From Candidatus Eubacterium faecigallinarum (GTDB taxonomy: Bacteria > Bacillota > Clostridia > Oscillospirales > Acutalibacteraceae): a stretch of 44,235 nucleotides of DNA. A program made the position numbers and the translations under genes. The DNA lies in NCBI GenBank assembly GCA_019115455.1, contig DXDN01000002.1, forward strand, positions 1-44,235, read 5' to 3'. The notes beneath the pieces were generated by a model. It searched no databases and was not told the origin of the DNA. It worked only from the letters and a program-made list of their open reading frames with translations. Shown piece after piece: positions 7,000-25,188 of this stretch (positions are counted from its first letter, which is position 1; every line of letters starts with the position of its first letter).

Positions 7000-8439
7000 T
7001 CAGCCGAGTTTTTCAAGAATTTCGGCAACTACTTCTCTTTCGTCAAAATGAATCGTTCCTGTGGGAAGAATCTGATATGTCTCATGACCCTTTCCGGCAA
7101 GAAGGATTATATCGTCTTTTTGAGCATTTTTGATAGCGTATTCAATAGCATCCCTGCGGCTTTCTATAACTACATGCGGTGTATCGATTCCTTCCAAACC
7201 CACAAGGATATCCTTAATAATATCGCCCGGTTTTTCCGAACGCGGGTTATCCGACGTTACTATACAGAAATCGGAAAGTTCTGCAACAATCTTGCCCATT
7301 TTCGGGCGTTTTGTTTTATCCCTGTCGCCGCCGCAGCCAAAGAGTGTTACTACTCTGCCTTTGGCTATCTCCTGAAGGGATGAGATGATATTTTCAAGTC
7401 CGTCAGGCGAATGAGCGTAGTCGATTATTATTGTGAAATCACGTCCGCCTGTGGGCACAACCTCAATTCTGCCTTTAACACCCTTTGATTTGCTGATGGC
7501 ATCAAGGACGTCGTCAAAGGGAATTCCCAGAGTAAGCGCACAGGTGGCGGCGCAAAGAGAATTATAAACTGAAAATCTGCCGGGTATCGGACAGTTGCAT
7601 CTGCCGATTCTGTCTCCAACCAGCTCATATTCAACTCCTGTCGCCTTAAAGGCAACATTTTTAGCAACGTAGGTTGCGTCATTGGTATTTACAGCATATG
7701 TTACGACCTTGTCAAAATTAAGACCTTCAACTATACGAAGTCCGTTTTCATCATCCGCATTTGTTACTGCAATATCTGCGTTTTCAAAAAGAATACGCTT
7801 TGAATTAAAATAATTTTCCCATGTTTTATGGTAATCAAGATGGTCCTGTGTAAGGTTTGTAAATGCAGCCAAGGTAAATCTCAGTCCGTTGACCCTGCCC
7901 TGGGCAAGTGCCTGAGAAGATACCTCCATTACGCAGTATTCGCAACCGTTTTCCACCATCATTGAAAACAGTTTCTGAAGCTCATACGGGTCAGGAGTTG
8001 TGAATTTAGCAGGATATATTTTATCCCCTATCATATTCTGTACAGTACCGATAAGACCTACCTTTTTGCCAGCATGTTCAAGTATCTGCTTTATCAAAAA
8101 GGTTGTAGTGGTTTTGCCGTTAGTACCTGTAAGACCTATCAGCTTGAGCTTATCTGCCGGATTGCCGAAGAAATTAGCGCACAAAAGCGAATATACCGCT
8201 CTTGAATTATCAACTATTACCTGACCTGACAGTCCCAGATCGTGGTCCACAACAACTGCTGCGGCTCCCTGTTCGAGCATCTGAGCAGCTACGCTGTGAC
8301 CGTCAAATGCCGCACCCTTAATGCATACGAAGAGCGACCCCTCCTTTACAAGTCTGGAGTCCTGTGTTACATCAAGCACTTCAGTATCTGTGTATGAATT
8401 TTTAACTTCAATACCTTTTAACATTTCCGAGAGCTTCAT
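7000..8439 (-). CDS. murE: UDP-MurNAc-dipeptide--meso-diaminopimelate ligase
   Basis: Adds the third stem-peptide residue. It has 479 residues. The P-loop GLTGTNGKTTTT is at about 102-113; the carbamylated lysine is expected in YFNSKRILFE (K214); the substrate-selecting motif is DNPR at 397-400. In this family DNPR marks meso-diaminopimelate rather than L-lysine, so the organism should have A1-gamma type peptidoglycan. The start ATG at 8439 is preceded by AAGGG. It lies 38 bases after the PBP stop. Confidence 0.95.
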   Translation of the reverse strand: MKLSEMLKGIEVKNSYTDTEVLDVTQDSRLVKEGSLFVCIKGAAFDGHSVAAQMLEQGAAAVVVDHDLGLSGQVIVDNSRAVYSLLCANFFGNPADKLKLIGLTGTNGKTTTTFLIKQILEHAGKKVGLIGTVQNMIGDKIYPAKFTTPDPYELQKLFSMMVENGCEYCVMEVSSQALAQGRVNGLRFTLAAFTNLTQDHLDYHKTWENYFNSKRILFENADIAVTNADDENGLRIVEGLNFDKVVTYAVNTNDATYVAKNVAFKATGVEYELVGDRIGRCNCPIPGRFSVYNSLCAATCALTLGIPFDDVLDAISKSKGVKGRIEVVPTGGRDFTIIIDYAHSPDGLENIISSLQEIAKGRVVTLFGCGGDRDKTKRPKMGKIVAELSDFCIVTSDNPRSEKPGDIIKDILVGLEGIDTPHVVIESRRDAIEYAIKNAQKDDIILLAGKGHETYQILPTGTIHFDEREVVAEILEKLG

Positions 8440-8477
8440 TACTCATTTCCCTTTCACACCGGCACAGCCGTTTATTT

Positions 8478-10748
8478 TTAGTCAAGTACACTTTCTGTAT
8501 TTTTAAACGTAACCGTAATAACTGTTCCCTGCTCAACAGAAACGCCCTTGTCATCGCTCTGTCTGTCCGCTATTACGGAACCGCTGCTGATATCATTTCC
8601 GCTTATTTCAATATTAAGATTATTTGTCTTTGCCAGGCTCTTAGCCTCGTTTACCGTAAGCCCTGTAAAGTCGGGCACTGTGGTCATTTTCTTATCGCTG
8701 TCATCTGTATAGATATAAACCGTTCCACCCGACGGAATCGTTCCGGCGCTTGTGGGGCACTGTCTTGTTACCGTGTCGCCGTCTCCGATTACCGTATATT
8801 CGAGTCCGTACTGCTTGAGCTGAGTTTTTGCGTCCTCAAGAGTTTCGCCTACAACGTTCGGCGTATACGATGACAGATTCTCTATTTCCTCGTCATCATA
8901 CTTCGGCTCGATTCCAAGAACGCTCATTGCTTCTTCAATAACTTCGGATGCAATCGGAGCGCAAAGAGCGCCGCCGCCGAGGTCCTGATTAGGCTCATCA
9001 ATAATGATTATCATTGCTATTTCAGGATCGTCACTGGGTGCTATAGCAGCAAAGGAAACTATGTATTTATCTCCCTCACCCTCTTTCGATTCACCGAGCT
9101 TTGTAGATGTACCGGTTTTTCCGCCGACTCTGTAACCGGCAACGTAACCGTTCTTTCCCGTTCCGTTATCAACAACGCCCTTCATCATTTCACGTACTGT
9201 TTCGGAGGTCTCACTGCTGATAACCTGACGAATCACCTTTGGTTCCGTCTTTTTAACGGTCTTGCCGTCGGCATCAACGATTGATGAAACAAGGTAAGGC
9301 TGAACAAGCTTGCCGCCGTTTGCAATAGCGCAAAGTCCTGTGCAAACCTGAATAGGCGTCAGCGAGTTTGTCTGACCAAAGGAAGCTGAGGACAACTCAA
9401 CAATACCGTATTCGTCCTCTTTATAATACTGAGGAGTCGCTTCACCCGGCAGGTCTATTCCGGTAATCTGGGTAAAACCGAAAGCGTCGAAATATTTGAA
9501 ATAATTATGCACGCCGAGTTTCTGACCGACTGTGATGAAAAACGGGTTGCAGGAATTTGCAAGTCCCTGAGCAAATGTCTGTGTGCCGTGACCGGCATGA
9601 TAGTGACAGTTCATTGTGTGAACGTCTACCTTAATTGAACCGGTACAAGTGTAAGTGGTTTCAGGGGTTACAACATTCTCCTCCAGCGCTGCTGCGGCAA
9701 TAAACGTCTTGAACACAGAACCGGGAACATACGTATCGTTTATTGTGAAATTTCTCCACTGATTCAGTGTTGCGGCACTCTCGGCTTTCTGCTTTTCCTC
9801 TTTATCCTTTATTTTCTTTATCTCATTTTTATCCTTGCTGTATGTAAGAGTGTACGGTTCATTACAGTCATAGTCCGGAAGCGACGCCATTGCAAGAACG
9901 CCTCCTGTATTGCAGTCCATTACTACTCCGTATGCGCCTTTTGCCTGATACTCCTCAAGGGTATTTCTAAGTCCCTTTTCAAGGTAATACTGTATCGTCT
10001 GGTTAATCGTAAGCACCAGTGAATTACCGTCGGTAGCCTCAACCGATGTTTCATAATCGTCCGAAATATCGTTTGAAAAAGCGTCCTTTGCGGTAATCAC
10101 TCTGCCGTTGGTGCCTGTAAGCTCCTCGTCATAATAAGATTCTATACCATAGAGTCCCTGATCATCATCACCGGTGAATCCGATAACTGTTGAAGCCAGT
10201 GAGCCGTATGGATAATATCTTTTTGACGACTGCTCCATACCGATAAAGTTAATATCATTCTCGGAGATAAATTCAGATATCTCCTCCTTAACGTTATTCT
10301 CAACCTTTTTTTCAACCATTGTATAATGGTTTTCTTCAAGCGTTTTTTTGTACAGCTCTTCTTTTTCTTCCTCGTCATAATCAAAAAGCTCCGTGAACTT
10401 TTCAACTAAGAGGTTGCGCCTTTTTTCGCTTTTCGCCTCTTTTTCGGCGATATCCTCGGCGGTATCTTCCTCTTCAATCTCAAGATCGATGGCAAGGGGG
10501 TCAATATAAATATCCCAAACCGTTGCCGACTGTGCAAGCACATTTCCCTCCGAGTCGTATATCGTGCCGCGCATGGCGGATATCTCCGTATCTCTCATCT
10601 GCTGGGATTCTGCTTTGCTTGAAAGTTCCTCGCCCCGCACTACCTGAAGATAAAACACCCTTACTGTATTGCTGCAAAGGAGGAATATTATCACCGCCGA
10701 CAATGCCAGCAGCCTTTTTAACATACTTTTACCGGTATTTCTTTTCAT
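8478..10748 (-). CDS. ftsI: Class B penicillin-binding protein with two PASTA domains
   Basis: Transpeptidase that cross-links septal peptidoglycan, partner of FtsW. It has 756 residues from ATG at 10748, chosen because AGGAGG lies seven bases upstream; the frame stays open further upstream but without a ribosome site and through a hairpin. It has a short basic N-terminus, a membrane anchor (about 10-30), a PBP-dimer domain with a long acidic Glu/Lys insert (about 90-140), then the transpeptidase domain: active serine in SVFK (about S344), SCN (about 399), KTGTS (about 544). Two PASTA repeats end the protein (about 640-756). In Firmicutes this architecture covers PBP2x and the sporulation protein SpoVD; which one it is cannot be settled here. 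Confidence 0.93.
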   Translation of the reverse strand: MKRNTGKSMLKRLLALSAVIIFLLCSNTVRVFYLQVVRGEELSSKAESQQMRDTEISAMRGTIYDSEGNVLAQSATVWDIYIDPLAIDLEIEEEDTAEDIAEKEAKSEKRRNLLVEKFTELFDYDEEEKEELYKKTLEENHYTMVEKKVENNVKEEISEFISENDINFIGMEQSSKRYYPYGSLASTVIGFTGDDDQGLYGIESYYDEELTGTNGRVITAKDAFSNDISDDYETSVEATDGNSLVLTINQTIQYYLEKGLRNTLEEYQAKGAYGVVMDCNTGGVLAMASLPDYDCNEPYTLTYSKDKNEIKKIKDKEEKQKAESAATLNQWRNFTINDTYVPGSVFKTFIAAAALEENVVTPETTYTCTGSIKVDVHTMNCHYHAGHGTQTFAQGLANSCNPFFITVGQKLGVHNYFKYFDAFGFTQITGIDLPGEATPQYYKEDEYGIVELSSASFGQTNSLTPIQVCTGLCAIANGGKLVQPYLVSSIVDADGKTVKKTEPKVIRQVISSETSETVREMMKGVVDNGTGKNGYVAGYRVGGKTGTSTKLGESKEGEGDKYIVSFAAIAPSDDPEIAMIIIIDEPNQDLGGGALCAPIASEVIEEAMSVLGIEPKYDDEEIENLSSYTPNVVGETLEDAKTQLKQYGLEYTVIGDGDTVTRQCPTSAGTIPSGGTVYIYTDDSDKKMTTVPDFTGLTVNEAKSLAKTNNLNIEISGNDISSGSVIADRQSDDKGVSVEQGTVITVTFKNTESVLD

Positions 10749-14553: not shown

Positions 14554-14595
14554 AAAAGGACGGATAACGAGCACCCTTGATAAAGAGGGTGCTCG
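14554..14595 (+). repeat. Left copy of a hairpin repeat flanking the island
   Basis: AAAAGGACGGAT (14554-14565) is followed by a 10-bp hairpin, CGAGCACCCT / AGGGTGCTCG, with loop TGATAAAG. An inverted copy lies at 25142-25188 and shares the AAAAGGACGGAT block and a 22-base hairpin core. The outer stem bases differ but remain paired in each copy. Confidence 0.75.
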
Positions 14596-14611: not shown

Positions 14612-16333
<1,722 letters not shown>

Positions 16334-16361: not shown

Positions 16362-16622
16362 TCAATATTGCTTTTCTGTCTGTTCTAAAATACGGACTGT
16401 CTTTTCTTCAATACTTTCTGTTGAGGTTTTGTTAAAATGTGTATTGACTGTATAGATTGTGTTATCTATTTCTTTTGTAAAGTTGATAGGCTTGTAAAAA
16501 AGAGAATAGTTATACCAATTTATTCTTTCGGCAGGTGACATTTTCTTTAGCTTTTCTATTTGATTTTTCATCAGTTCATTGACATAATTGTATTCACTTT
16601 TAGTCAGATAAAGTTTAATCAT
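16362..16622 (-). CDS. TnpW-like small transposon protein
   Basis: An 86-residue protein directly upstream of the recombinase (95-base gap, same strand). The C-terminal half, EIDNTIYTVNTHFNKTSTES then EEKTVRILEQ, fits the pattern I recall for TnpW-family proteins (IG.T.Y.V..HF...., then a helix ending in R.L), which accompany TnpX-type recombinases in Tn1549-like elements. The N-terminal half (MIKLYLTKSEYNYVNELM) is helical and not recognised. ATG at 16622 has AAAGGAG upstream. Function of TnpW is unknown. Assignment is from memory of the family plus position, not from alignment. Confidence 0.6.
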   Translation of the reverse strand: MIKLYLTKSEYNYVNELMKNQIEKLKKMSPAERINWYNYSLFYKPINFTKEIDNTIYTVNTHFNKTSTESIEEKTVRILEQTEKQY

Positions 16623-16665
16623 TTTACGCTCCTTTCAAACGGGTTTCAGGGTGTCCCTGACAGGC

Positions 16666-16699
16666 ACTGTTTGGAATTTGTAATTACAAACAGTCTGCT
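16666..16699 (-). repeat. Inverted repeat copy A (with palindrome)
   Basis: Read on the minus strand this copy begins AGCAGACTGTTTGTAATTAC and ends AATTCCAAACAGT. It is homologous to the plus-strand sequence at 17218-17256: 21 bases identical, then the shared AATTCCAA.CAGT block, with a 5-base insertion in the other copy. It can itself fold through ACTGTTTG/CAAACAGT. It lies 44 bases upstream of the TnpW-like gene. Confidence 0.75.
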
Positions 16700-17212
16700 G
16701 GTTATGACAACGCAACGGGTTGAACATCGGAATGTTTGCAAACAACTTAGATATTTCTTCGGTTGGTAAAATAGGGATTTTCTACTGCTCAAGTATCAAG
16801 TTTATATCTCAATTTTACAGAATTATTTTCCCTTTTTTCAAGCGGACAGCTTCACGGCATCGTGAAATAAAGGACTTGACAAGCAGGCATTTATGTGCTA
16901 CCTATCCTCACTATATTACTGAATAAACAGGTGCAAATTATTAATCTATTCAAACTATTTTTAAGCAAAAAAACAAAGCCGTTTACACAAATCAACTCAC
17001 TTTCGGTGGGTTAATTTAATATGTAAACGACTTGATTAAAGTCACATTTTGCTTTCGGCAAAAGCATTATTTATGTGTATTAAATTGTGGTTTTGTATTG
17101 TTAATTTTCAGTTTTTCTATTTGAATTTTAACATATTTAAAAGCGAAATACAACCCGAACAAATCAAATTCAAAAAGATAAAATCATAGACCTAACTGTC
17201 CTTGCTCTGCCT

Positions 17213-17268
17213 TAACGAGCAGACTGTTTGTAATTACATTCGTAATTCCAAGCAGTAAATGCTCGTTA
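17213..17268 (+). repeat. Nested hairpin containing inverted repeat copy B
   Basis: The outer stem TAACGAGCA / TGCTCGTTA (9 bp) encloses CTG/CAG and AATTAC-ATTC-GTAATT. The part at 17218-17256 is the inverted partner of 16666-16699. A T-rich stretch (CCTTTTTATAA) follows about 18 bases later, so it may act as a plus-strand terminator, or be a recombinase or regulator site. Confidence 0.6.
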
Positions 17269-17305
17269 GGGGTAAATCCCTAAGACCTTTTTATAAAACT
17301 TAAAT

Positions 17306-17331
17306 CCGCACAATCTGTACAGATTGTGCGG
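17306..17331. repeat. Perfect 26-bp palindrome
   Basis: Each half is CCGCACAATCTGT (17306-17318) and its exact reverse complement (17319-17331), with no spacer. There is no U tract after it in either direction, so a terminator is unlikely. It could be a dimeric protein site or a cruciform-forming site of the former mobile element. Confidence 0.8.
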
Positions 17332-17378
17332 CAAATCATATTCAAAAGAAGTCGAAGTTCCAACTACCATAAAAAAAG

Positions 17379-17507
17379 GTGGTAACCGAAAACGTTAAAG
17401 AAGAGGAAGAAAGCAAAAATTCACTATGGAGACCGTTCATTCTTACAGGATTTGCAGTAGGAGGCATAATATGCTTTGCAATTCCAACGGCAATTTATAA
17501 ATCATGA
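17379..17507 (+). CDS. Possible 42-residue single-span membrane peptide
   Basis: A short frame from GTG at 17379 to TGA at 17505 encodes an acidic N-terminus (TENVKEEEESKNS) and one hydrophobic segment (FILTGFAVGGIICFAIPTAI) ending YKS. AAAGG lies immediately before the start, with poor spacing. The stop codon directly abuts the right-end hairpin of the IS200-like remnant (17508), so a longer original gene may have been cut by the insertion. I do not recognise a family; it may not be translated. Confidence 0.3.
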   Translation: MVTENVKEEEESKNSLWRPFILTGFAVGGIICFAIPTAIYKS

Positions 17508-18049
17508 CCACGACTCAGCCGATGGTTTGCCCTGCCCCTGTAAGGGGCTGTTACCGTCCGCCACTGAGGTGGCGCTGAAGCGGTTTGCCAACCGCATTAC
17601 TTTTTCACGCTTACGCTGAAGCGTTTTTTCTTACTCTTTTGTACCGTCTCACCCATAAACGGGTCTATGTATTCTTTGAGTGACAGTTGACCAGCTACAA
17701 GATCTTCTTGTAGCTGATTTTTTATGTACTCTTTTATCTTTTTACTGTTCTTTCTTACTATATCTACGTAATATCCTCTACACCAAAAATGTCTGCTTCT
17801 GCTGTTTCTGTTGAAAGTTCTCGTAATATTTTGCCTGCGTCATCCCTGTTTTTCCATATATCACTTGTCTTCTATACTTTGGTACGAATACCCAACGGTA
17901 TTTGCATTCCCGTGTTGTATGTAATAAACTGTTTTTATCCATTGCGGACACCTCATTAATATTTTTGTGCGGTCGACCACATTCATTATATCACGGAGGC
18001 TTTTTTCCTTTTATCTAAAGTACTTTGTCTCCACCTGCATAGCAGATGG
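17508..18049 (-). mobile_element. Deleted IS200/IS605-type insertion sequence
   Basis: The element is oriented on the minus strand. The left-end imperfect hairpin is CCATCTGC-TAT-GCAGGTGG (18049-18031) and the right-end hairpin CCATCGGCTGAGTCGTGG (17525-17508) carries a bulged T, the terminal-hairpin style of this family. Between them is a broken Y1 transposase gene. The length of about 540 bases is less than the roughly 700 bases of intact IS200 elements, in line with an internal deletion. Further hairpins (GCCCCT-TAC-AGGGGC, GCGGTT-TGCC-AACCGC) lie near the right end. No orfB/tnpB is present. Confidence 0.8.
17597..17942 (-). pseudogene. tnpA: IS200-family TnpA transposase, deleted and frameshifted
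   Basis: The N-terminus reads MDKNSLLHTTRECKYRWVF then VPKYRRQVIYGK, the classic IS200 TnpA start. The frame then shifts (KILREL appears in another frame), and the central third with the HUH histidine motif (normally in PDHIHML) is absent. The C-terminal part resumes as RHFWCRGYYVDIVRKNS, includes KKIKEYIKNQLQEDLVAGQL and KEYIDPFMGE, and ends FSVSVKK. The catalytic tyrosine region is partly kept but the metal-binding histidines are lost, so the protein cannot be functional. ATG is at 17942, stop at 17597. Confidence 0.88.
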
Positions 18050-18069
18050 TTTATTTGTTGATACCAAAA

Positions 18070-18102
18070 AGCGTGTAATGATTATAAAAATCATTACACG
18101 CT
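18070..18102 (-). terminator. Terminator of the surface-protein operon
   Basis: A 14-bp perfect stem (AGCGTGTAATGATT / AATCATTACACGCT) with a 5-base loop lies 31 bases after the stop of the last surface-protein gene; on the minus strand it is followed by TTTTTGG. Confidence 0.88.
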
Positions 18103-18133
18103 GATTTAATTATACAATATTAAAATAATTAAA

Positions 18134-19108
18134 TTATGCTGTTTCTTTTTTCTTTTTAGAAATGAGAATTACTGCAAAAGCCATAGCTCCTGCACCAACA
18201 GCAGCAAGGAATATCGGCGTCTCGTTTCCCGTGTTTGGAGACTTTTTGTCTTCATTTTTTGAAGCAGTATCGCTCGTTCCTGCGCTGACAGTTGATGTAT
18301 TTGCTTTAACGGTAAAATCAGCAGTTGCAATACCTGTTGCCGAAACAATAGAAATTGTATGCTTGCCGGGAGACAAAGTTTCAAGATAGTCAGCTTTGAG
18401 TGTAACTACTGTACTGCCTTCCTTAACTGTATAGTTTGAATTGTTAAGGTCTTTGCCGTCTACCTGAACTTTCTGAAAATCAGCAAATGCTGCATTAGAT
18501 GTAAATGCAAGCCCATCGCTTGAGCCTTTCTGCCATGTGCCGTTTGCACCTTTAGTAATTTCTATTGACTGTGTTACAGTCTTTGCTTCCTTATATTCAA
18601 TCATAATTCCATATACTGAAGCGCTGCCGTATACTACATCAATAGTTAATGGAAAACTAACTGAAGTTGCTGTATAACCGCTTGCTGACGCACCGTTCTC
18701 AATACGGGCAGTAGCTCCATCATAACCATTTGGAAGAGGAACAGTAAGCGTTCCGCTGAGGGTTTCACCTTCGTAGTCAACTAAAGGAATACTTACATGA
18801 TATTCAGCATGCATATCATAGCCTTCGCTGGGATTTCCCATCTCGCTGTGCATTGCATTATAGTAATCAATACGAAGTCCGTCATATTCGCCCATCTCTC
18901 CCACATTCACTGAATTGTCAGGCGTAAATGTAGCAGAAAGTTCCGGTCGAAATACATAATCAATATCTGATTCCGATTCAATAGTCCTTACCGGCAAATC
19001 AATGGATTGTGCCGCAAACACTGTGGTTGGAACAAAACTTACAAGCAGGCACATACTCATAAGTAATGCTGCCAAGATTGTTTTTTTGCTTTTCTTTTTT
19101 GTTATCAT
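18134..19108 (-). CDS. Secreted protein with SPNTG sorting signal and X2-like domain
   Basis: Surface protein of 324 residues. The signal peptide has a KKKSKK start, a hydrophobic core and cleavage after VFAA (about residue 33). A novel-looking region follows (35-195), then a segment at about 196-270 (ITKGANGTWQKGSSDGLAF, KVQVDGKDLNNSNYTVKEGS, LSPGKHTISI) of the Ig-like X2/CBM_X2 type common on Clostridia surface proteins. It ends with a Ser/Thr-rich spacer, SPNTG (about 290), a hydrophobic segment and KKKK, the layout of a sortase substrate. AGGAGG precedes ATG 19108. It is the last gene of a three-gene operon, 63 bases after the LRR gene. Its ligand is unknown. Confidence 0.8.
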   Translation of the reverse strand: MITKKKSKKTILAALLMSMCLLVSFVPTTVFAAQSIDLPVRTIESESDIDYVFRPELSATFTPDNSVNVGEMGEYDGLRIDYYNAMHSEMGNPSEGYDMHAEYHVSIPLVDYEGETLSGTLTVPLPNGYDGATARIENGASASGYTATSVSFPLTIDVVYGSASVYGIMIEYKEAKTVTQSIEITKGANGTWQKGSSDGLAFTSNAAFADFQKVQVDGKDLNNSNYTVKEGSTVVTLKADYLETLSPGKHTISIVSATGIATADFTVKANTSTVSAGTSDTASKNEDKKSPNTGNETPIFLAAVGAGAMAFAVILISKKKKETA

Positions 19109-19171
19109 GATAATTTTCCTCCTTTTGATTTATAAAAGCCGATACTTAGATTTTTATATTATCGACATAAA

Positions 19172-22108
19172 TCACTTTTTAATTTTATATCTCTTTTTGT
19201 AAACAGCCGCAGCTGAATAAGTGCTGAATATAGATACGAAAAGTACTAATACCCACATATAAACGCCGCTTTCATTTCCTGTCTGCGGAGATTTTACGTT
19301 ATTAGGCTTATTTGTTTCCGTATTTGAATTTTCAGTTTTTGTGTCAGCCTTGTCCGATTGCGCATGTGTTGCGGCAGCAGGAATCACAACAGCAGTTTTT
19401 TTGTAACCGCAAACCTCACATTCTTCATGCTTGTAGCCGTTTTCAGTTTCTGTTGCGTCTTTATCAATTACCCACTTAAAACTATGTTCCGCCTTGCTGT
19501 CTTCATAAACAAAGCCACAGCCTGCTGTACATCCATGCCAATGGTTATCTGCATCATAACTCCACTGAGTACTTTCGGTATGACCGAGAGCCTCGCCCTC
19601 AGTAATGCCGCAAACAGAACAGGTTTTAGGAGCAGTGCACGTAGCCGCCGTCCATGAATGATCTGCATATTCTCCGTACTCCGTGTCACAAACATCGCAC
19701 ACTGCTTTCTTCTTGCAAGTTGCAGCATTTGCACCTGTAGAGGAATGAGCTGCTTTGTCGATTATTTCACCACAGACAGTACAACGCTTATAATGCTCGT
19801 CATCAGTTTTTGTCCAGTCTTCATCGGCAGTATGTTCTAATTTAGGTATAACGAGTAATGATTGGTCTTTTATCAGCACAGTACAGTCTGCATCCTCAAA
19901 CAATTGACCGCAGTCAGCACATTTATAATGACTTTTTACACCTTCCTTTGTGCAGGTAGCCGCACTCTCAAGAACTAAAATACCCGTATGCTCACTTACA
20001 ATAAGATTTCCGTTTTCCCAGCTTCCTGACTTGAGTTCTACTGAATTGTCAATTTCGATATTTTCTTCCAGAATATTCGTCACCTTACAGTCTGATTTTG
20101 TCTGGAAAGTACCGCCGTTGATTGCAATAACACCTTGTTCCATAGGGTCAAAATATATTGCACATTTGGGATCATCGTAGTAAGCTACGCCGTCCATTAA
20201 TGTTAAGGTTCCGTTGTTCATCACAAGCTTGCTTTCCGTTTGGTCGCTGTTGCTGCCGTTACCCAAAGAAAGAGCCTTTCCCGTAACAGAGGTAGTATCT
20301 CCGTCAACCGTGACAGTACTCTGGTGATTGGCGGTAATTTTTTCCGCCACATCTACCGTTGCGCCGTTTTTAAACGTAATATTGTGGTGAACAAAGAGAT
20401 AGGTTCCCACATTGACGGTTGCGCCGTCGATTACCAAATCACCCGTGTCGTTGTTTCCGCCGTAACCACTATCCCGACCTAAATCCATCTGCTTGTTGGT
20501 AGTAAGAGTACCGTCTCCAGTTATAACAAGATTGCATCCAACATCTGAGTTTATACTGTCACCCTCGGAATTGATTGTATTTTCTCCCACCAAAACGATG
20601 GTAAGATTTTCAAATCCTGAGTTTATTGCTCCGCAATAGCCGTATTTACCGCCGTATTCGGTAATGGTTGCATTGGTCAGTGTAAGGGTATTTGTATCAG
20701 GGTCAAACGCTGCCGTGCCGTCCCCGCAGGCTACGGTCAGCTTATCGCTGCGAAAACGTTCTCCATTAACAAAAAGAGGATAAAACAATGTGCCGCTATC
20801 CAAGATATATCCGGCAAAATCCTCACCCAGTGCTGCAATATATGCTTCTTCCGAGCCCTCTGGTACGTGAATACGGAAAGCCGGCTGTGAAGGATTAAAC
20901 ACATTATAAGAAAATGCAGGCGGTGTAGCGCTTTCAAAAGTTACGCTGACAAGACCGGTACAGCCATCAAATGCGCTGGAATCAATACTTTTGACGGTGG
21001 AAGGAATAGTGATTTCAGCCAGACCGATGCAGTCGGCAAACATAAAACCGCTGATATGATTTGGAACCTGTATCTCTGTCAGGGAAGTACAGCCTTTGAA
21101 CGTCCTGATCCCGCTGTCAGAAATCTTGTTAAACGGAAAAGACGTAAGAGACGTGCAGTTTTCAAAGGCGTACATATCAATGTAGAAGCTTTCTCCGCCA
21201 TTCACTGTTACTGTAGTGAGTTTTTTACAGTTGTAGAAAGCCCAATCGGCAATACGAACAATTTCATTTGCGGAAAAGGTTTCAATGGCGCTCCCGGCAA
21301 ATGCCTGAGACGCAATTATCACTGCATTTGCCGTGATGTTTTTCAGTTTTGTGTTTTCGTAAAAGGCTTTATAGCTGATAGAATTTACAGCGCTTGGGAC
21401 AGTAAAATCTGTATCTGTTTTTCCTCCGGGATATGCCTGAAGCCACACTTTGCTTGCGTTATACAAAACGCCGTCCTCTGCACAATAAGACGTGTTGCCG
21501 TCTTCCACCGTATAGGCGGCGAGATTCGGATATTCATTTGCCGGGAAGTCACGACCATCAATGACGCAATTCACATCTTTCCAAATATTCACGCCAACAA
21601 CGCTTTCTTTATACAGCATTTGATAAAGGGTATTCTGTGTTTTCAGCCAGTTTTTCCAGTTGGCAAGTCCCTTGTCTGCCTCAATATGTAAAATCCCGTT
21701 TTCGTCCAGTGTCCACCAGTCCCATTCGGGGATATTGATAAGCGTTACCTCGCTCTCCGTTCCGTCTTCGCCCTTTACCACGAGAAACAACAGATAAAGG
21801 TCGGTAGTAAGATTTCCTACGGTAACCGAAACTTTTTCTCCTGCAGCACAAGGAACTCCTTCACCCGTAGTATCAATTTCCAAGTCTTGTGTAAACTCGC
21901 TTGGCAGTATCGCCGCATAATAGTATTCTCCCGCTGTATCGCTGGTAAATTCTACCACCGCCTCAGTTCTTGTAGTGCGGTATACGTCACCCGGCGTCAC
22001 TGTCGGCTCCGCCGCAAATACGGTCACAGGCATCAAGCCCACCAGAAGACACAGACTGAGCATTAACGCCCCAAGTTTTGACATTAGTCTTTTCTTTTTT
22101 ATTTTCAT
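19172..22108 (-). CDS. BspA-type LRR / beta-helix surface protein with SPQTG signal
   Basis: Surface protein of 978 residues. Signal peptide 1-33 (VFAAE), a beta-sandwich-like region (36-125), then leucine-rich repeats of the BspA/LRR_5 kind at about 195-425 (NSISYKAFYENTKLKNI, FENCTSLTSF, FKGCTSLTEIQVP, IDSSAFDGCTGLVSV). A stretch at about 445-715 has repeated TLTLTNATI, LVITGDGTLTT and LVMNNGTLTL strands, suggesting a right-handed beta-helix. Four or five CxxC knuckles follow (CADCG, CTVCG, CDVCD, CSVCG, CEVCG) between His-rich repeats, then SPQTG (about 940), a hydrophobic segment and KKRYKIKK. ATG overlaps the stop of the 113-residue gene (ATGA). Such proteins often bind host or food glycans and proteins; the ligand here is unknown. 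Confidence 0.85.
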   Translation of the reverse strand: MKIKKKRLMSKLGALMLSLCLLVGLMPVTVFAAEPTVTPGDVYRTTRTEAVVEFTSDTAGEYYYAAILPSEFTQDLEIDTTGEGVPCAAGEKVSVTVGNLTTDLYLLFLVVKGEDGTESEVTLINIPEWDWWTLDENGILHIEADKGLANWKNWLKTQNTLYQMLYKESVVGVNIWKDVNCVIDGRDFPANEYPNLAAYTVEDGNTSYCAEDGVLYNASKVWLQAYPGGKTDTDFTVPSAVNSISYKAFYENTKLKNITANAVIIASQAFAGSAIETFSANEIVRIADWAFYNCKKLTTVTVNGGESFYIDMYAFENCTSLTSFPFNKISDSGIRTFKGCTSLTEIQVPNHISGFMFADCIGLAEITIPSTVKSIDSSAFDGCTGLVSVTFESATPPAFSYNVFNPSQPAFRIHVPEGSEEAYIAALGEDFAGYILDSGTLFYPLFVNGERFRSDKLTVACGDGTAAFDPDTNTLTLTNATITEYGGKYGYCGAINSGFENLTIVLVGENTINSEGDSINSDVGCNLVITGDGTLTTNKQMDLGRDSGYGGNNDTGDLVIDGATVNVGTYLFVHHNITFKNGATVDVAEKITANHQSTVTVDGDTTSVTGKALSLGNGSNSDQTESKLVMNNGTLTLMDGVAYYDDPKCAIYFDPMEQGVIAINGGTFQTKSDCKVTNILEENIEIDNSVELKSGSWENGNLIVSEHTGILVLESAATCTKEGVKSHYKCADCGQLFEDADCTVLIKDQSLLVIPKLEHTADEDWTKTDDEHYKRCTVCGEIIDKAAHSSTGANAATCKKKAVCDVCDTEYGEYADHSWTAATCTAPKTCSVCGITEGEALGHTESTQWSYDADNHWHGCTAGCGFVYEDSKAEHSFKWVIDKDATETENGYKHEECEVCGYKKTAVVIPAAATHAQSDKADTKTENSNTETNKPNNVKSPQTGNESGVYMWVLVLFVSIFSTYSAAAVYKKRYKIKK

Positions 22109-22446
22109 GCAGGTTTATCTCCTTTCTGCTTAATAAAAACCGATATTTTCAGCTCATTTTCCAAAAGCTGTTCCACACGATCTGCCAAATACTCCACCGC
22201 ACGCATTTTGCCCTTGTCTGACAGCCCTTCTCTCGGGCTTTTTATTTTTACTGTCAGGACTGTTGCAGGCGGTTCGTCCGATATGGTTAATTCAAATCCG
22301 CTTGTGTTTCCGAAAACCGAAATACTTGCGTCGATTTGTCCTGCATTTTCTTTTTTATAAACGCTGTTTTCGGAATCCAAAACATCATAAAGCGCATAAA
22401 GAACCAGCTGTTTGGTATACGGCAATATACGCCTGACGGATTTCAT
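22105..22446 (-). CDS. 113-residue protein of unknown function, first in surface operon
   Basis: Not recognised. It has no signal peptide or membrane segment, so it is probably cytoplasmic. The N-terminus is helical and basic (MKSVRRILPYTKQLVLYALY); the middle alternates strand-like segments (IDASISVFGNTSGFELTISD, TVLTVKIKSP); a helix (KGKMRAVEYLADRVEQLLE) and a short basic tail follow. It has an AGGGAGGTG ribosome site and is translationally coupled to the LRR gene through ATGA, which suggests a linked role such as control, export help or modification of the surface proteins. That role is inference from the arrangement alone. Confidence 0.7.
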   Translation of the reverse strand: MKSVRRILPYTKQLVLYALYDVLDSENSVYKKENAGQIDASISVFGNTSGFELTISDEPPATVLTVKIKSPREGLSDKGKMRAVEYLADRVEQLLENELKISVFIKQKGDKPA

Positions 22447-22530
22447 GATTTTTCACCTCCCTTATTTATTTACCTTTAAAGTACGTCTAAATAGTAACTT
22501 GCCGAGAAAATTTTTTGTAGTCCACATTAG

Positions 22531-22566
22531 TGACATAATGTCAAATTAAGAGGTTCACATATGTGA
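22531..22566. promoter_or_regulatory. Two palindromes upstream of the surface-protein operon
   Basis: TGACAT-A-ATGTCA (22531-22543) and TCACATATGTGA (22555-22566, perfect) have centres about 23 bases apart. A minus-strand TTGACA (22544-22539) overlaps the first palindrome; 17 bases on, the -10 position reads ACTACA, a poor hexamer. A weak -10 with palindromes over and upstream of the -35 fits an activator-dependent promoter. The nearby LuxR-type protein is the obvious candidate, which is inference. Confidence 0.5.
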
Positions 22567-22584
22567 CTTTTTAAAAAAATCACA

Positions 22585-22617
22585 TAAAAAAGCACCGTTT
22601 TCTGTGGAAAACAGTGC
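22585..22617 (-). terminator. Terminator of the LuxR-type regulator gene
   Basis: An 11-bp stem GCACTGTTTTC / GAAAACGGTGC (minus strand, one G-T pair) with a 4-base loop is followed by TTTTTTAT, 27 bases after the stop codon at 22644. Confidence 0.85.
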
Positions 22618-22643
22618 ATAAATAAAAAACATTTATTTTTCTT

Positions 22644-24074
22644 TTATTTTATTTCAAAACTTGTATAGCTTTGGAACAAACCGATACGACTTTTTGTTTC
22701 AGTCTTTTCATAAATCGAAGCTATGTACCGCTGAAGCATTCTGCGGGAAATATAAAGGCTGTCGGCAATTTCCTGAACACCGTCCTCGGTTGTAAGCAAT
22801 TTCTCCAGGACCTCGGTTTCACGGGGAGTCAATGAACAACTTTGCGCATACAGACTCAATCTTTCCTGAGGTGATAATGCAGAATCGCTTAATGACTCTT
22901 TTGATTTTTCCGTTTTATTTCCGAAATGGAGATATCCGCCGACAGCAAAGGATAGGACTAATACAACGAACATCAAAATATCTATTGTTATAATTAGATT
23001 TAAAGGAAGATCGGCAATACACGCAGCAGCCAGAACGCTGTCAGCCAATCCGCTTATTACACGTCCCATTCCCGCCCAAAGCTCGGGATATTTGGTTTCC
23101 TGCGCAATATTCCAAAACATTAAGTTGAAATAGGAAACATTTGCGCCGAGGCAAACGTAGTAAAGGCACATATTAAGATAATAATTTCCAACCTCGCCGA
23201 ACAAAATCGGATTAAACACGGCAAACATTGCCATACACAAAGTGGCGATAGGAACATACTTTTGCTTCTTTATATCGCCAATAAATCCAATCAAGACATA
23301 ACTCGCTATAATAAAAAGACGAGGCCAGGCATAATAATTAAATTCCTGATAATTTGTCTGCACGTTAAGACGCATCATCTGGGTATCATAAAAAGTTCCG
23401 ATTACGGATAGCGCCACAACTGTCAGCGATAGTATAATAAGCCTTTTGCGTATATCGCTTTTTGTTTTCAAAGACTCTTTTTCATAAGGCAGACAGTCTT
23501 CTCCCAGCCATGACCACGGTTTTTTGACGGCAAGCCAGAGAGTTACGGCAAAGCCCAAAACAAGCACAATGGGAAGCCCGAACATAATGTCCAAATGCTC
23601 CTGTAGCAAGTATTGAAATAAAACAGCTATAGATGCACCGATTGCCATCACTTTTCCGATATAATGTGTCTGTGCCAAAGCCAGGGACATACAAAAATAA
23701 ACCGTTCCGCCGAGGACTCCCAAGGAAAATGCCGCCAGCATTGCCATAACAGAATATGTAACAACCCAATTCATAAAATAAAGTGCAAGCACACTGACAA
23801 AATATACAATGTTGGGAATAACCAGCATCCTAAGCCGTGCTTTTTCAGACTTAAATATTTTGCGCTGTAATGAAAAAAACACAAATCCAGCAGCTACCAG
23901 TATATAGTCAATATAATGCAGTGCAAGCTGCCACGAGGAATCAGAAACGCTGATATTTCTCTGGTCAATAAAAGAAAGCGTTACCATATATTCAAACATA
24001 TAGGCGGAAAAAAACACAATCAAGAAAATAATTTTATGTTTCTTTATTTTATGCTTAAATAAAACCAAGTCCAT
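22644..24074 (-). CDS. Membrane-embedded LuxR-type regulator
   Basis: Protein of 476 residues with about 12 hydrophobic segments (residues 15-385) arranged like an MFS transporter, then a linker and a C-terminal LuxR/GerE helix-turn-helix (about 410-470: LTPRETEVLEKLLTTEDG, then VQEIADSLYISRRMLQRYIA). ATG at 24074 with AGGAGAG upstream is preferred to a TTG 45 bases earlier. This one-component design (membrane sensor fused to LuxR domain) is common in gut Actinobacteria and found in Clostridia; the signals are unknown. It probably controls the surface-protein operon that starts 200 bases downstream on the same strand, as it has its own terminator and the operon promoter has palindromes. Confidence 0.85.
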   Translation of the reverse strand: MDLVLFKHKIKKHKIIFLIVFFSAYMFEYMVTLSFIDQRNISVSDSSWQLALHYIDYILVAAGFVFFSLQRKIFKSEKARLRMLVIPNIVYFVSVLALYFMNWVVTYSVMAMLAAFSLGVLGGTVYFCMSLALAQTHYIGKVMAIGASIAVLFQYLLQEHLDIMFGLPIVLVLGFAVTLWLAVKKPWSWLGEDCLPYEKESLKTKSDIRKRLIILSLTVVALSVIGTFYDTQMMRLNVQTNYQEFNYYAWPRLFIIASYVLIGFIGDIKKQKYVPIATLCMAMFAVFNPILFGEVGNYYLNMCLYYVCLGANVSYFNLMFWNIAQETKYPELWAGMGRVISGLADSVLAAACIADLPLNLIITIDILMFVVLVLSFAVGGYLHFGNKTEKSKESLSDSALSPQERLSLYAQSCSLTPRETEVLEKLLTTEDGVQEIADSLYISRRMLQRYIASIYEKTETKSRIGLFQSYTSFEIK

Positions 24075-24606
24075 TATTATTTTCTCTCCTTTTAGCAGAA
24101 TGCACAAAACTTTTTTCAAGACGTTCTCAAGATATACATATGTTTATTATATAACAGAAACATAATGCAAAGCAGACGAAATTTATCAAAATCCAATACC
24201 TGTTTCAGGCAACTCAACATTGAATTACTAAAGGTTAGACGTCCTAATTTACTGTGCTTTAACCGTATTTATTCGTTAATGCCAACATCAGTTAACATTG
24301 TTTATTAAGCCGTATTTTTGCACATTTTTATCATATCTACTTTGACCGCAGTATATCACATTTTCTATAAAAAATCAATGAGGCGAAAGACTTGCCCTAA
24401 TTAATATATGTCTATAACTGTAAAAAATCACACTCCTGTCATATAACAAATATTTCAGCACAACAGAAAAAGGTAGAACAATATCAGTAACACAAACAAA
24501 GCAACTTAATTTTCTTAAATTTGGAATAATAATGTCAAGCATCATCACCACAGGCGATAAAATCATGCATTCCAAAAAAACGACATATTACTGATTAAAT
24601 ATTTAA
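24075..24606. other. AT-rich gap without a supported gene
   Basis: No convincing gene. On the minus strand TATAAT (24144-24139) lies upstream of the regulator gene, with only a weak TGCTTT at 17-base spacing. A 66-codon frame at 24375-24575 (minus) has no ribosome site and no recognisable features. Short protein-like stretches near 24540-24590 (minus strand) may be more pseudogene debris. Confidence 0.5.
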
Positions 24607-25141: not shown

Positions 25142-25188
25142 TTTTAGGGCACCCTCTTTATCAAGGGTGCCCTAAAATCCGTCCTTTT
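25142..25188 (-). terminator. Terminator of the coiled-coil gene; right copy of island hairpin repeat
   Basis: On the minus strand AAAAGGACGGAT is followed by a 14-bp stem TTTTAGGGCACCCT / AGGGTGCCCTAAAA with loop TGATAAAG, 24 bases after the stop at 25201. It is the inverted homologue of 14554-14595. In this position it can end the rsmD-coaD-coiled-coil transcript. Confidence 0.75.

Follow-up and report, generated by a model that had tools for sequence, protein, structure and literature searches.

Layout of the cassette and its surface proteins

The DNA analyzed here, positions 1 to 44,235 of contig DXDN01000002.1 (assembly GCA_019115455.1) of Candidatus Eubacterium faecigallinarum and hereafter called the window, carries on its minus strand a cassette in which a membrane-bound LuxR-type regulator gene is followed by a gene for a 113-amino-acid protein, which we call P113 (22105..22446), and then by two surface-protein genes. 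The regulator (open reading frame (ORF) 22644-24119, with the ATG at 24074, i.e., 22644..24074) was recognized by PF00196 GerE and by its predicted helices, 12 of them transmembrane (TM). The first surface protein, of 978 amino acids (19172..22108; assigned by ORF, Pfam and tail pattern), has BspA-type leucine-rich repeats (LRR) of the LRR_5 family and an SPQTG tail, and the second, of 324 amino acids (18134..19108; assigned by ORF, NCBIfam and Pfam), has an X2-like domain and an SPNTG anchor.

The stop codon of P113 overlaps the start of the LRR gene in an ATGA at 22105-22108. A terminator with a 14-pair stem and a T run follows the X2-like gene (18070..18102, minus strand), another with an 11-pair stem and a T run follows luxR (22592..22617, minus strand), and a scan of the minus strand of the 63-nt gap between the LRR and X2-like genes found no terminator-like site. 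It is therefore plausible from these signals that P113 and both surface-protein genes form one transcription unit, and luxR is probably transcribed separately from it. A generic promoter scan remained at chance level (14 found vs. 15.8 expected). An earlier note on this DNA, made from the sequence alone, had described the three minus-strand genes, their ATGA coupling and the common terminator, all of which were found in place, as well as a membrane LuxR regulator close to them, whose C-terminus matches PF00196 GerE (30.2 bits, cut-off 23.5).

As judged by simple patterns, both surface proteins fit the layout of sortase substrates, with a signal peptide, a (S/P)PXTG motif, a hydrophobic stretch and a basic tail. 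The two tails reported in the earlier note were thereby recovered, and the signal peptides, which it had called near-identical, proved on sequence comparison to be similar. The 978-residue protein shows a clear match to PF13306 LRR_5 (92.5 bits). In the 324-residue protein, CBM_X2 stays below the cut-off (22.7 vs. 28.9 bits) and the anchor matches TIGR01167 (23.1 bits, cut-off 15.9). At a related locus, L002, from the named strain Gallibacter intestinalis DSM 108706, the homologue of this protein passes the CBM_X2 cut-off (29.5 bits), and the alignment with the C-terminal part of a 550-residue L002 protein shows 51% identity over 328 columns.

One sortase is encoded in the genome, outside the window (PF04203, 35.2 bits), which agrees with the earlier proposal that display depends on a host sortase. 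Anchoring of both proteins by this single enzyme, via SPQTG and SPNTG, is predicted from their motifs. SrtB of C. difficile (CdSrtB) cleaves SPQTG peptides (PMC4155245), so that the window proteins resemble the (S/P)PXTG-bearing substrates of SrtB in clostridia; the parts of that article drawn on here do not name SPNTG as a motif. By eye, the sortase gene adjoins one for a protein with an APATG-type tail.

P113, its partner and its cargo

The window P113 had no Pfam match at E-values up to 1, and its sole NCBIfam match, to S-ribosylhomocysteine lyase, was at chance level (11.8 bits vs. 275). Among 15 members of the family, DUF2102, GIPC1_GH2 and RsiG each matched two (best E 6e-4, 8e-4 and 0.05, respectively) and were discarded as chance. 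Methanogenesis marker 6 (2/15 members, best E 2e-3) was likewise taken as chance, as were PDB sequence matches with E-values of 0.13 or worse. These searches point to a new protein family without a clear Pfam or NCBIfam match. Relatives were found at nine loci in GTDB contigs, with best-segment identities of 61–72%. A single-sequence search detected P113 in 6/391 genomes of the class and a profile search in 16/394 genomes of the order, while the two positives among 398 genomes of the phylum were the window's own and one from the same order. Matches are scattered patchily over several families. The three congeneric genomes among the 394 of the order gave no P113 match, and neither did the remaining members of the window's family.

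A plasmid origin was dismissed, no plasmid match having been obtained, and so was a phage origin: the sole record filed under Bacteriophage sp., MT835506 (L063), looks bacterial, with sugar transporter-like genes next to the LuxR–P113 order. Neither the P113 query (A2) nor the window sensor retrieved a relative from IMG/VR. Several species share an additional P113-like gene that is interrupted by two in-frame TGA codons (L055 11105-11353, L057 and L058) and that accompanies an intact P113 in L055 and in L057; recoding of TGA was rejected, and we read the gene as a decayed paralogue.

The collection of P113 loci came to 28, with L052 left out as a duplicate of L007. Twenty-two were testable, each with at least 2.9 kb upstream; in L003 (2.5 kb), L006, L008, L009, L058 and L059, the contig ends before luxR could be reached. 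A membrane LuxR gene is present at all 22 testable loci, which represent 15 lineages when P113 is clustered at 85% (L010, too short for clustering, was counted apart). The gene is split in L051 and L057 and cut by the locus end in L004. A small gene of the HTH_26 (Cro/C1-type) family precedes luxR in L002 (6128-6331, Pfam) and, by eye, in L005, L007 and L019; none was seen in the window. In L056, the operator is immediately followed by a decayed P113 (17343-17495), and an intact copy, adjoining kinase-type genes, lies about 8 kb further downstream.

Only 5/22 testable loci (the window, L002, L019, L055 and L057) have a gene for an xPxTG-anchored protein after P113 and on its strand. Elsewhere, P113 is followed by genes for SLH proteins (L021, L053), for lipoproteins by simple pattern (L004, L005, L010) or for TM/TPR proteins (L054, L062, L063; Pfam on L054 only), and the cargo of L022 consists of FHA, PP2C, trypsin-FHA and protein kinase genes. 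L020, L051 and L056 were grouped with L022 by gene order and N-termini; in L020, the only neighbour scanned (7860-9569) had no Pfam match. Tails in L007 and L010 carry other motifs (SPDSA and VPASA), LPxTG genes of L004 lie on the opposite strand only, and the L018 sequence breaks off within a secreted-protein gene, past its start. With anchored cargo so rare and the cargo otherwise diverse, P113 therefore belongs with the regulator: its constant partner is the regulator, not the SPxTG proteins. The earlier note had asked whether P113 always precedes SPxTG-type genes with a LuxR/12-TM gene nearby; the LuxR/12-TM gene is there at all testable loci, the SPxTG-type genes are not.

The same note saw in P113 a dedicated cytoplasmic helper of surface-protein export or anchoring, or else a switch. 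The ATGA coupling to the LRR gene, repeated with the surface gene of L002, would suit a helper, as would the simple patterns that assign much of the P113-linked cargo to the membrane or to secretion. Against a helper speak the small share of loci with anchored cargo, the fusion of P113 to a kinase in L051, the kinase-type genes that adjoin it in L020, L022 and L056, and L005, where P113 is the last gene of the strand run. The LuxR-linked surface island stands, whereas a dedicated display helper is quite unlikely; a role as a switch is possible.

Structure modelling predicted for P113 a helix-grip fold of the beta-alpha-beta4-alpha type, closest to the N-terminal domain of BamC and to KA1 domains (MARK, SAD, Chk1, AMPK). 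Unlike the outer-membrane-assembly lipoprotein BamC, P113 has, by eye, neither a signal peptide nor a lipobox. In L051, it forms the C-terminus of a Ser/Thr kinase (residues 646-739; kinase 57-315), an arrangement reminiscent of KA1 domains that occurs in that locus and not in the window; P113 differs from both KA1 and BamC-N in its lack of a sequence-family match and is free-standing in all other loci examined. P113 might be a module of the KA1 type with kinases or membrane lipids as its binding partners; on an island without a kinase, it would act on a host kinase or persist as a relic. KA1 folds among the top structure matches favour this, as do the kinase fusion and the kinase-type neighbours described above. 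On the other hand, kinase-type operons were assigned in only 3/15 lineages (the others not being scanned gene by gene), Pfam gave no KA1 match, the L020 neighbour matched no Pfam family, and P113 is strongly conserved in surface-type copies, which speaks against a relic. We regard this reading as doubtful.

Operator and regulator

After the luxR terminator, tandem dyads with the consensus AATGGCGCACATRCGAAC were found in eight loci, 33 bp apart (32 in L005 and L051) and followed at a fixed distance by a TATNAT-like hexamer (one nt further in L010). On the minus strand of the window, site A (22553..22569) lies 33 bp upstream of site B (22520..22536), and the -10-like hexamer TACTAT (22491..22496) keeps the distance from site B that is fixed in 7/8 aligned operators; if this hexamer is the -10, the dyad of site B is centred near -43. 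The operator-promoter model R1, built from eight rows with the window site among them, matched 22491..22571 on the minus strand (55.8 bits), which stood out genome-wide as the single strong site (E 7.2e-15; next, E 0.41). A matrix that drew on the seven other loci and excluded the window scored the window site at 15.8, the next in the window at -15.9, and 20 base shuffles at no more than 2.7.

The dyads of other lineages differ in sequence but are often 32–33 bp apart. In a direct-repeat scan after luxR (20 loci, 20 base shuffles each), the top pair was spaced 32–33 bp in 12 loci, with L002 and L054 not above their best shuffle, 35 in L021 and L053, and 32 bp in L022, before a divergent luxR. 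For the window, L020, L050, L061 and L062, the scan ranked first either another repeat or a pair spaced 48–60, the 32-bp pair of L020 being found by eye. A second, partial operator of L010 (3108-3164) is located upstream of luxR, on the opposite strand, and faces a secreted-protein gene.

The cytoplasmic helix-turn-helix (HTH) of the regulator would bind the two dyads just past the terminator of its own gene. The lux box of Vibrio fischeri lies close to 43 bp upstream of the start. Since the proximal dyad, about 43 bp before the inferred start, appears to replace a weak -35, the regulator may act as an activator of a sigma-70-type promoter.

The regulator comprises a sensor (about residues 1-390) and the HTH (about residues 400-476). 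A simple scan found 10 hydrophobic segments, and the structure model shows 12 long helices, with low confidence in the TM part and a confident HTH. Compared with L002, the TM part is only 27% identical and the HTH 87%, and identity per 30 residues jumps from 16–43% to 87–97% near residue 390-405, at the linker; other members of the L002 operator group retain 70–81% TM identity. In the TM tree, the window regulator groups with L092-L094, LuxRs that lack P113 (support 0.999), and in the HTH tree with the L002 group (support 0.867). The regulator thus looks chimeric, and sensor exchange under a retained operator is the simplest reading of these comparisons: an operator-matching HTH would have been kept, while the sensor was acquired or diverged into a different one. 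Alternatively, the contrast may reflect fast sensor evolution only, without domain exchange, and the low TM-domain identity despite homologous HTHs across E. lenta described by Dong et al. (PMC9734109) offers a precedent. The abrupt jump at the linker and the disagreement between the two trees, which long branches could mislead, argue against this alternative, which we consider credible if somewhat improbable. In L092 (6330-13999) and L093 (1644-9530), the P113-less membrane LuxR genes stand directly before genes for secreted proteins of about 2000 amino acids, and in L094 before lipoprotein-like genes.

In a limited literature collection on membrane LuxR proteins, only the work on E. lenta and Gordonibacter was relevant (PMC9734109, PMC11585353). 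The 10–12-TM LuxR regulators of Coriobacteriia (DadR, HcdR, CadR; PMC9734109) share the N-terminal 12-TM part and the C-terminal GerE HTH, and they too adjoin the genes that they presumably control. Those genes encode metabolic enzymes, in contrast with the surface, lipoprotein or kinase-type operons seen here in Clostridia, where P113 is a constant partner. Further, the loci described here occur once per genome in 17 genomes, compared with 83 in one E. lenta strain, and have a conserved tandem operator, whereas none is given for the Coriobacteriia regulators in the parts of that study consulted (PMC9734109).

Mobile element and reading of the whole unit

The cassette lies within a TnpX/TnpW-type insertion of about 10.6 kb (~14554 to ~25188) that is missing from a congener: the two genes flanking the insertion, one for an MFS protein and one for a protein of 186 amino acids, are separated by 56 bp in L087 (genome G1160), an empty site that bears out the island proposed earlier. 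Imperfect terminal inverted repeats bound it, the left at 14554..14592 and the right at 25149..25188 (approximate limits), each an inverted match to the other. At the left end, the minus strand encodes a TnpX-like large serine recombinase (14627..16267; Pfam: Resolvase, Recombinase, Zn_ribbon_recom, DUF4368) and a TnpW-like protein of 86 amino acids (16362..16622; PF14202, 33.5 bits, cut-off 25). No relaxase gene was found in the insertion, 16622-18134 holding only ORFs below 70 amino acids and none elsewhere looking like one. We take the element to resemble Tn4451-type integrative mobilizable elements, given that it is a discrete insertion bounded by terminal inverted repeats, with TnpW and a TnpX-like recombinase encoded at one end, and L002 adds, by eye, a relaxase-like ORF; the window copy differs in the lack of a relaxase gene and in having a surface regulon as cargo.

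An island of mobile build could in principle hold regulator, P113 and surface genes as independent passengers joined by the element, but their linkage across 15 lineages with differing cargo, together with a common operator, makes this highly improbable. Instead, we favour, as reasonably probable, a mobile one-component surface-protein switch in which P113 works with the regulator in the cytoplasm, as its partner or as a feedback element. The membrane LuxR would sense a signal through its 12-TM domain and activate a transcript encoding P113, then the LRR adhesin-like protein, then the X2-like protein; P113 would most likely act on the regulator rather than as a chaperone of the anchored proteins, and the whole unit would move on the TnpX/TnpW-type element.

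Several findings weigh against this mobile switch. When the 394 genomes of the order were searched with the regulator profile (A4), 26 were positive and the 14 above 300 bits were all P113-positive, a score gap partly built in by seeding the profile from P113 loci. In G605 and G639, the remaining P113-positive genomes, only decayed copies near contig ends were seen, and 12/394 have weaker or cut LuxR matches without P113, at least two of which (G592, G658) are cut at a contig end. Single-clade profiles still ranked P113-linked above P113-less regulators, narrowly in one of two (148.6 vs. 131.9). The position of P113 within the operon varies, its predicted fold is common to many functions, and no KA1 or BamC match appeared in Pfam among the 15 members at E-values up to 1. 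In the window, site B is weaker than site A (2.5 vs. 13.3 bits) and a single-site IUPAC pattern occurs at chance level (2 found vs. 1.5 expected), only the two-site-plus-promoter model being significant. Finally, TIGR01167 did not match the 978-residue anchor in the protein scan or the genome search.

More tentatively, and on a speculative footing, these loci might belong to a class of clostridial mobile membrane-LuxR switches with a fixed output domain and operator, exchanged sensors and swapped cargo (adhesins, lipoproteins, SLH proteins, kinase relays), in which a KA1-like P113 gates the regulator at the membrane. If so, a bacterial KA1-like domain would serve both kinases and a membrane transcription factor. 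For a class of regulators whose working is unclear, the loci provide an operator that can be tested, and they widen the range of this class from metabolism to surface display. They also bring in P113 as a new family with a near-strict partner, and suggest a route by which gut bacteria may gain adhesins under ready-made control.

Two minor observations concern the insertion and its site. A remnant resembling an IS200-type transposase was seen by eye on the minus strand at 17620-17950, with nine stops in the frame tried, and in another congener (L089 2184-6419) the same insertion site carries a gene for a probable secreted protein of 1412 amino acids.
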